Origin: Candidatus Peribacteria bacterium | GTDB lineage: Bacteria > Patescibacteriota > Gracilibacteria > UBA1369 > 2-02-FULL-48-14 | Direction: 5' to 3' | Assembly: GCA_943354505.1 (NCBI GenBank) | Contig: CALRCE010000006.1 | Coordinates: 1 to 44,559, forward strand | DNA: 44,559 nt | In this document: piece after piece, positions 38,571 to 40,047 of the stretch | How the letters are laid out: each line of letters begins with the position of its first letter | How positions within the stretch are numbered: position 1 is the stretch's first letter | Position numbers and translations under genes: made by a program | The notes under the pieces: model-generated | Database searches by the model: none | What the model was told of the DNA's origin: nothing | The model's input: the letters and a program-made list of their open reading frames with translations, nothing else

Positions 38571-39854
38571 TTAGTCGAAGTGAAGGCTAGCGTTGAGACT
38601 TTTAAAATCTTCCACAAAACGAGGATAGGTTTTGTTGAGGCCCTCTGCGGTGTCTATCACGGTTTTGCCGTCGGCTAAGAGTCCTGCCAAGCTGAGAGCC
38701 ATGATGGTTCGGTGGTCGTCAAAGCCCTGCACTTCTGCGCCATGCAAACTCGAACGGCGCACGATCAGCCCATCGGCCAGTTCTTCGATGTCGGCGCCCA
38801 TTTTGCGCAGTCCTTCTGTCATGGAGTGCAGTCGATCGGTTTCTTTGACTCGAGCTTGAGGCACATTGAGGATGCGTGTTTCACCTTCGGCTTGAGTTCC
38901 GAGCACCGCCAAAGTGGGCACCAAATCGGGAACGTCGTTGGCATCGAGGGTGATTCCTTGGAGAGCAGTTTTTTTCACGAAGACGCTTCCCTTGTTCCGT
39001 TCCACTTCGGCGCCCATTTCTTTTAAAATGGAGAGCAGACGGCGGTCGCCTTGTAGGTCGTTTGAATCGAGTCCTTCGAGTTGAATGTTTCCACTGAAGA
39101 GCGCTCCGGCAGCTAAAAAAGTGGAGGCGGACGAAAAATCTCCGGGCACGGTGTAGTCGATGGGAGAGTGGTTTTGTCCTGCAGGCAGATGAAAATGATC
39201 GGAATTCTCTTCGCGAGTGTGCGTGAAGAGAATGCCTTGAGTGCGCAGCCAATCCAAAGTCAGTTCCATGTACGGACGTTCGTTCAAATTTTCTACCGTG
39301 AGATCCAAGTCCTTTTCAGCGTGGCATCCCGAAAGGAGCAGTGCCGAAATGAACTGAGAAGTGAGTCCGTTCACTTTTGTTGTCCCCCCTTTTAAAGGTC
39401 CACGAATGGCGAGAGGCCAGGTGGAGGATTCCACAGTACAGCCGAGGTCGATGAGATTTTTCAGCAAGGATTCGAGAGGGCGTTTTTTCATTTGAGCACC
39501 GGCTTCGATTCGCATGGTTTTTGCTCCTTCCACCAAGGCTAACATGGGTAAAACAAAACGTGTGGTGACCCCTGAGTTCCCGGTCCAGAGCGTGTCTTTG
39601 AGCGGATGCAGAGGTACACCCACGCTTTCAATGTGTACGCAGTTTTCGTGACAGTCTGCTTTGTTCACGGTCGTGCCTAAGTCTCGGCACACGCCCAAGG
39701 CCACGGTCACGTCTTCAGATTCTGGGAGGAAGTGGATGGTAGAAACTCCTTTTGTGAGGCACGCCACAAGCAGGGCTCGCACGCTTTGGGATTTGGATCC
39801 CGGGATGCGCAGGGTGCCTTGGAGTTCTGAACTGGTTTGAACGTGTAAATTCAT
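38571..39854 (-). CDS. aroA: 3-phosphoshikimate 1-carboxyvinyltransferase (EPSP synthase)
   Basis: LRIPGSKSQSVRALLVACL, GNSGVTTRFVLPMLAL, QFISALLLSGC, VPGDFSSASTFLAAGAL, DHRTIMALSLAGLL. Confidence 0.96.
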   Translation of the reverse strand: MNLHVQTSSELQGTLRIPGSKSQSVRALLVACLTKGVSTIHFLPESEDVTVALGVCRDLGTTVNKADCHENCVHIESVGVPLHPLKDTLWTGNSGVTTRFVLPMLALVEGAKTMRIEAGAQMKKRPLESLLKNLIDLGCTVESSTWPLAIRGPLKGGTTKVNGLTSQFISALLLSGCHAEKDLDLTVENLNERPYMELTLDWLRTQGILFTHTREENSDHFHLPAGQNHSPIDYTVPGDFSSASTFLAAGALFSGNIQLEGLDSNDLQGDRRLLSILKEMGAEVERNKGSVFVKKTALQGITLDANDVPDLVPTLAVLGTQAEGETRILNVPQARVKETDRLHSMTEGLRKMGADIEELADGLIVRRSSLHGAEVQGFDDHRTIMALSLAGLLADGKTVIDTAEGLNKTYPRFVEDFKSLNASLHFD

Positions 39855-39868
39855 TGGATTTAAGACTT

Positions 39869-39929
39869 AAAAAAACCTCGCGTCGCGAGGCTAAGAGAGT
39901 CAAATTTGCACACTTCTTAGAGGCCTCGC
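39869..39929 (-). promoter_or_regulatory. Attenuator of the aro operon: mutually exclusive antiterminator / terminator
   Basis: Minus-strand RNA: GCGAGG-CCU-CUAAGA (39915-39929) pairs with UCUUAGCCUCGC (39885-39896); competing terminator CCUCGC-GAC-GCGAGG (39876-39890) followed by a 7-U tract. Confidence 0.85.
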
Positions 39930-39976
39930 TGGGGAGCGAAGTAATAAAAGCTGTTAAAAAAGAAAGTGTGTGCCAT
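39917..39976 (-). CDS. Phe/Tyr-rich leader peptide (19 aa) of the aro operon attenuator
   Basis: ATG GCA CAC ACT TTC TTT TTT AAC AGC TTT TAT TAC TTC GCT CCC CAG CGA GGC CTC TAA = MAHTFFFNSFYYFAPQRGL*. Confidence 0.88.
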   Translation of the reverse strand: MAHTFFFNSFYYFAPQRGL

Positions 39977-39987
39977 AAAGCGAGGTA

Positions 39988-40016
39988 ATCTTAGGCCCAG
40001 TATTCCGAGATGTCAA
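39988..40016 (-). promoter_or_regulatory. Promoter of the aro operon / leader
   Basis: Minus strand TTGACA-N17-TAAGAT; predicted TSS only about 5 nt upstream of the leader ATG. Confidence 0.8.
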
Positions 40017-40047
40017 TGTGTGCAAAACTTTCTGTCTAAAATTGTTT

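Follow-up and report, generated by a model that had tools for sequence, protein, structure and literature searches.

What controls the aromatic amino acid operon of a Candidatus Peribacteria bacterium (Patescibacteriota)? The question is raised by a short open reading frame (ORF) and a terminator that lie between a promoter-like sequence and aroA on the minus strand of contig CALRCE010000006.1 (assembly GCA_943354505.1, genome G000). The 44,559 nucleotides of this contig that were analysed are called the window here. Most bacteria of the candidate phyla radiation (CPR) are uncultivated, their genomes are small, and the regulation of their biosynthesis is largely obscure. An initial annotation, made from the letters of the window, had read the region as an attenuator with a leader peptide rich in Phe and Tyr. 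According to the computational analysis reported here, the element is very probably a ribosome-mediated transcription attenuator that would sense charged tRNA-Phe (and tRNA-Tyr) and control the operon from aroA to tyrA.

The sequence elements given in the initial annotation, namely both promoter boxes, the leader ORF, the terminator with its U tract and the start of aroA, are correct letter by letter (Table 1). The promoter is followed by the short ORF, in which clustered codons for the end products Phe and Tyr were confirmed as FFFNSFYYF (five Phe and two Tyr in nine codons). The intrinsic terminator lies between this ORF and the first gene. The end of the leader ORF was said to pair with a segment containing the terminator arm; it does so, and the duplex exceeds shuffles (p = 0.004). 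Antiterminator and terminator are mutually exclusive in the predicted pairing, and the antiterminator would be masked by a ribosome that has reached the stop codon. The attenuation logic is supported by homologues, pairing and folds, but the architecture comprises three or four helices and not two, as stems P1 and P2 had been missed. In P1, leader codons 2-4 pair with sequence beyond the leader stop, and P2 joins the last Phe-Ala codons to the 5' arm of the antiterminator. Both are present in the minimum-energy fold of the leader (z = -2.67). Protector P2, antiterminator and terminator thus follow the trp-type order 1:2, 2:3, 3:4.

Homologous leaders were found by a DNA search of relatives (G001 and G004, deposited as Candidatus Peribacteria and Candidatus Peregrinibacteria, respectively), by a pattern scan of metagenomes (L066, L075, L082 and L091) and by a covariance model of the leader run against 361 genomes of the class (G359, with the further family member MIQNQFFFSQFFFFFASQRGR). 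A further homologous leader is present in G005. The contig L066 carries the same aro operon order behind the leader MTHNFFFNGFYYFAPQRGF; its codon run differs by synonymous substitutions, it has an equally spaced -35/-10 pair of its own, and the helices are the same. A comparison of homologous upstream regions had been proposed as a check; codon run and structure are conserved at the homologous loci, with the Phe/Tyr run kept and the stems changed with compensation. P1 occurs as GCACAC/GUGUGC, ACACAC/GUGUGU, GUUCAC/GUGAAC and AGACAUUC/GAAUGUCU. This covariation was read by hand; MAFFT misaligned the G004 terminators. The peptide end FAPQRG is conserved in the type-1 leaders, the type to which the window leader belongs. 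Genome G005 keeps the RNA AGCGAGGC in another reading frame, so that its peptide ends in FATARR, and the leader peptide end is therefore constrained mainly as RNA. The ORF might instead encode a small functional peptide with a terminator of its own, the pairing with the terminator arm being incidental. The conserved FAPQRG end, the occurrence of the leader before unrelated small ORFs and the precedent of the trans-acting leader peptide peTrpL (PMC7298713) would agree with this. It is nevertheless improbable, because frame and peptide end change in G005 with the RNA retained, because the stems covary and exceed shuffles, and because the control codons track the pathway in other lineages, as described below.

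Antiterminator pairing exceeds dinucleotide shuffles in eight type-1 leaders (Fisher p 3.7e-13), and it also exceeds shuffles in three leaders of a second type (Fisher p 2.4e-5). P1 pairing exceeds shuffles across the type-1 leaders (p 3e-4). About as improbable as a functional peptide is a terminator that either acts constitutively and in part or closes an upstream unit, operon expression being independent of leader translation. In its favour, terminators often occur between genes and the predicted default fold includes this one; however, control terminators from G000 lack the strong antiterminator complementarity seen here (6 of 140 at p < 0.05, median p 0.54), and the distance from stop codon to terminator is narrow in all leaders (~23-48 nt).

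For the mechanism, we infer the transcription start, the stalling, the read-through and the direction and size of regulation as follows. The leader ATG lies 11 nt past the -10 box, and this short distance predicts a near-leaderless mRNA, with transcription starting at the ATG or a few bases before it; the initial annotation had no such near-leaderless transcript. The distance is 7-11 nt in L066, G001, G004 and several leaders before 3-deoxy-D-arabino-heptulosonate 7-phosphate (DAHP) synthase genes. A ribosome would then trail the polymerase. With plentiful Phe- and Tyr-tRNA it would reach the stop codon and cover the 5' arm of the antiterminator, so that the terminator before aroA could form. 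When these tRNAs are scarce it would stall in FFFNSFYYF and open P2; GCGAGG and CUAAGA would pair with UCUUAGCCUCGC, the terminator would be blocked and the operon transcribed. P1, P2 and the terminator together would be the default fold (off) without translation. In a simulation in which only the RNA not covered by a ribosome was folded, the antiterminator resulted from an early or mid stall and the terminator from a ribosome at the stop, for the window leader and for almost all of ten type-1 and type-2 relatives; an assumed footprint and equilibrium folding were used, so that the result speaks for compatibility and not for kinetics.

Table 1. Positions of the leader, the operon and neighbouring elements in the window
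Feature	Position	Strand	Basis or remark
-35 box TTGACA	40016-40011	minus	sequence; TTGAC kept in 6 of 7 aligned sequences
-10 box TAAGAT	39993-39988	minus	17-nt spacer from -35, read from sequence
Leader ORF MAHTFFFNSFYYFAPQRGL	39976-39917	minus	sequence; peptide kept in L066 with synonymous changes
Outer stem P1, 5' arm GCACAC	39973-39968	minus	pairs with 39913-39908; minimum-energy fold and compensatory homologue versions
Outer stem P1, 3' arm GUGUGC	39913-39908	minus	as for the 5' arm
Protector hairpin P2 (1:2) CUUCGCU-CCCC-AGCGAGG	39941-39924	minus	fold; same hairpin readable in type-1 homologues
Antiterminator 5' arm (2) GCGAGG-CCU-CUAAGA	39929-39915	minus	overlaps leader ORF end; GCGAGG 39929-39924, CUAAGA 39920-39915
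Antiterminator 3' arm (3) UCUUAGCCUCGC	39896-39885	minus	UCUUAG 39896-39891, CCUCGC 39890-39885; CCUCGC common to terminator
Intrinsic terminator (3:4) AGCCUCGC-GAC-GCGAGGUU and U tract	39892-39869	minus	sequence, fold; core CCUCGC-GAC-GCGAGG 39890-39876, U7 39875-39869
aroA, first structural gene	39854-38571	minus	NCBIfam TIGR01356 above cut-off
Remaining operon genes, aroK to TyrA fusion	38558-31863	minus	where starts are clear, genes overlap or are ~12 nt apart
Intergenic repeat GACCTGACAGAAATCCTGAAATTTAACTTGAACTTTCCTGA...	40042-40110	minus	
tRNA-like RNA	40132-40245	plus	72 nt, with encoded CCA and own terminator

The operon comprises eight genes in the order aroA, aroK, aroQ (type II), aroE, aroG (DAHP synthase), aroB, prephenate dehydratase and a TyrA/chorismate mutase/aminotransferase fusion; aroC is located on the opposite strand. 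This order fits the earlier argument that the Phe and Tyr genes at the operon end match a leader free of Trp codons. The genome (1.16 Mb, 97.7% complete) gave no trpC match, in keeping with the lack of Trp codons in this Phe/Tyr leader. No second convincing leader was found in the ~547 kb scanned, roughly half of the genome.

Similar switches are present elsewhere in Patescibacteria. The covariance-model search also led to leaders unrelated to that of the window, namely MTSNMFFNGYWSFAFCARTVL before DAHP synthase (G310), the Ile leader MTHRSIIISIIIASRPRR before a citramalate/isopropylmalate-synthase-like (cimA-like) gene (G303) and the Ile-rich leader MPKNLQQNIILSIIISPHRGA before an ORF of no assigned function (G359). 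DAHP synthase loci were then identified by PF00793, and their upstream regions were examined. Leaders precede 8 of the first 30 loci. Among 40 further stretches of the class, 16 carry a Phe/Tyr/Trp-rich leader with terminator, against 0 of 40 on the antisense strand and 1 of 40 in reversed sequence (Fisher p 5e-6 and 5e-5). Of 12 loci from other classes of the phylum, 8 have such a leader (antisense 1 of 12). Antiterminator pairing exceeds shuffles in nine leaders, eight of them from other classes (Fisher p 2e-8), and in thirty other leaders of the class (Fisher p 8e-14, to be compared with the control terminators above). Leu-rich leaders, e.g. MQKQLLLLELLLLRD, precede 2-isopropylmalate synthase (leuA) in four genomes. 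As the genomes are related, the counts are not independent events. These matches of Leu to leuA, Ile to the cimA-like gene and Phe/Tyr/Trp to DAHP synthase are those that speak against a functional peptide. Many DAHP-synthase leaders (L159, L161-L163, L167-L169) are accompanied by a second short ORF between the terminator and the enzyme gene, with ends such as KPLAYRNR or KQRAYRN before the stop; it could be a second, translational control.

None of the leaders scanned has a match at gathering score in Rfam 15, where weak-threshold scans were also run. The sole match to Phe_leader (RF01859) scores 26 bits (cut-off 55) and is located elsewhere on L075, outside the leader; to the Rfam T-box model no match was reported. 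A different effector governing the same alternative helices (free Phe acting through the RNA or a nascent chain, or a protein) is the least probable explanation, for although RNA switches with terminators are common and nascent-chain sensors such as TnaC exist, no riboswitch or T-box match was obtained from Rfam and the amino acid of the codon run differs between pathways, a pattern more in keeping with tRNA sensing than with a fixed aptamer.

Several observations weigh against ribosome-mediated attenuation of an aromatic operon, or limit it. In G021, G028, G035 and G058, four relatives whose aro operon is similar, no leader stands directly before aroA, and the leader at aroA is therefore lineage-specific. 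Upstream regions of relatives that lacked the ORF had been named as grounds for rejection, and these four lack it directly before aroA. Members of the leader family also stand, in several relatives, before small ORFs for which no connection with aromatic metabolism is known, and the element is not unique to the aroA operon. P1 pairing fails to reach significance in G001, L075 and G005; in part this reflects a different position of P1 relative to the stop codon in these leaders. For a mid-run stall in G001, the complete free RNA folds the terminator, and the antiterminator is predicted only as long as the terminator is still incomplete. Trp codons in DAHP-synthase leaders track the presence of trpC only as a trend (p = 0.078). 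Finally, all assemblies are metagenomic.

Known attenuators provide close parallels. With pheL/pheA and pheM/pheST of Enterobacteria, the window leader shares a Phe-rich peptide, mutually exclusive antiterminator and terminator, and Phe genes downstream. It differs in its Tyr codons, in a whole shikimate-to-Phe/Tyr operon from aroA, in a predicted near-leaderless transcript and in its Patescibacteria host; the window leader has no RF01859 match, and no sequence relation is established. The trp operon attenuator (trpL) has the same protector, antiterminator and terminator order, whereas the amino acids, genes and lineage differ and the window leader has the additional outer stem P1. The RNA of Sinorhizobium meliloti trpL (rnTrpL) begins at the ATG of the leader ORF (PMC7298713), a precedent for a leaderless attenuator mRNA, although under Trp control and in an alphaproteobacterium. 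In Corynebacterium glutamicum, leader peptides precede aroF, leuA, trpE and ilvB (PMC3890552); targets such as DAHP synthase and leuA are the same, but the host belongs to the Actinobacteria and there is no evidence here of common descent. The Sinorhizobium and Corynebacterium precedents mean that the kind of mechanism is known. In the works cited here, leader-peptide attenuation is described chiefly for Proteobacteria, Firmicutes and Actinobacteria (PMC1262725, PMC2965389, PMC7298713, PMC3890552). The initial annotation knew of no case in Patescibacteria; a full-text search of open-licence literature likewise retrieved no report of leader peptides or attenuation in Patescibacteria, candidate phyla, Saccharibacteria or Peregrinibacteria, an earlier description elsewhere being possible. 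What appears to be new is the presence and breadth of such attenuation in the CPR, in many cases on transcripts whose predicted start lies at the leader ATG or just upstream of it. The leaders before DAHP synthase, leuA and the cimA-like gene in several Patescibacteria classes would extend attenuation to a large branch and imply coupled transcription and translation there. Their codons would provide a read-out, from sequence alone, of the amino acids sensed, one of the few ways to approach the physiology of cells that have not been cultured.

Outside the aro operons, small ORFs follow the leader in G001, L075, L082, L091 and G005. In G001, L075, L082 and G005, rplJ lies ~0.6-0.9 kb beyond the leader and has a promoter-like sequence of its own; L091 has the same arrangement, its contig ending short of rplJ. 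A second, tandem leader of another type is present in L091, L075 and G005 (MKKTFFYYYFYFTGSRGCF, MHIILSFFHFFHFTGSRGCF and MKKSKNTYLYFYFTGSRGAF), each with its own terminator and antiterminator. It is conceivable, though rather doubtful, that such tandem Phe/Tyr/His attenuators (type 1 ending in FAPQRG, type 2 in FTGSRG[CA]F before the stop) control fast-evolving ORFs of ~50-120 aa just upstream of rplJ in Peribacteria-like relatives. If so, they would represent an amino-acid-starvation response through small effectors, and not biosynthesis control, in ultra-small bacteria. Fast-evolving ORFs of 50-120 aa behind Phe/Tyr/His leaders were seen upstream of rplJ in L115 (3377-3970), L091, L075, L082 and L104. 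These ORFs match no Pfam family; in G001 they adjoin a TenA/haem-oxygenase-like gene. For the one searched, the 85-aa ORF behind the G001 leader, the database contains no homologue other than the ORF itself, and no Pfam family matches it. G001 gave neither AroA nor DAHP synthase matches. The G004 leader precedes a 328-aa ORF with no significant Pfam match. A TTAACC(A/C)-rich stretch recurs past the terminators in L075, L091, L104, L115 and L161-L163, before the next ATG, with no obvious Shine-Dalgarno sequence.

In metagenomes and genomes, the 26-base leader pattern was mostly matched by chance or by coding DNA (e.g. WNG contigs and Flavobacterium); a match was retained only where a short ORF and a terminator accompanied it. 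Weak covariance-model matches in G102, G215, G165, G085, G346, G217, G209, G141 and G039 were not accepted, and a type-2 pattern match in G038 is not among the leaders retained.

Beyond the promoter, the window contains a tRNA-like RNA that was not called by ARAGORN. It matches only the two tRNA-like ends of transfer-messenger RNA (RF00023, 28.3 bits, cut-off 47, E 1e-9), with 316 model positions missing. Several paralogues are present in G000 (C19:12284-12408, C7:20167-20232 and C13:15189-15255), and homologues occur in G001, G005 and G028. The intergenic repeat listed in Table 1 recurs on several other contigs of G000, on some of them adjoining the tRNA-like element.
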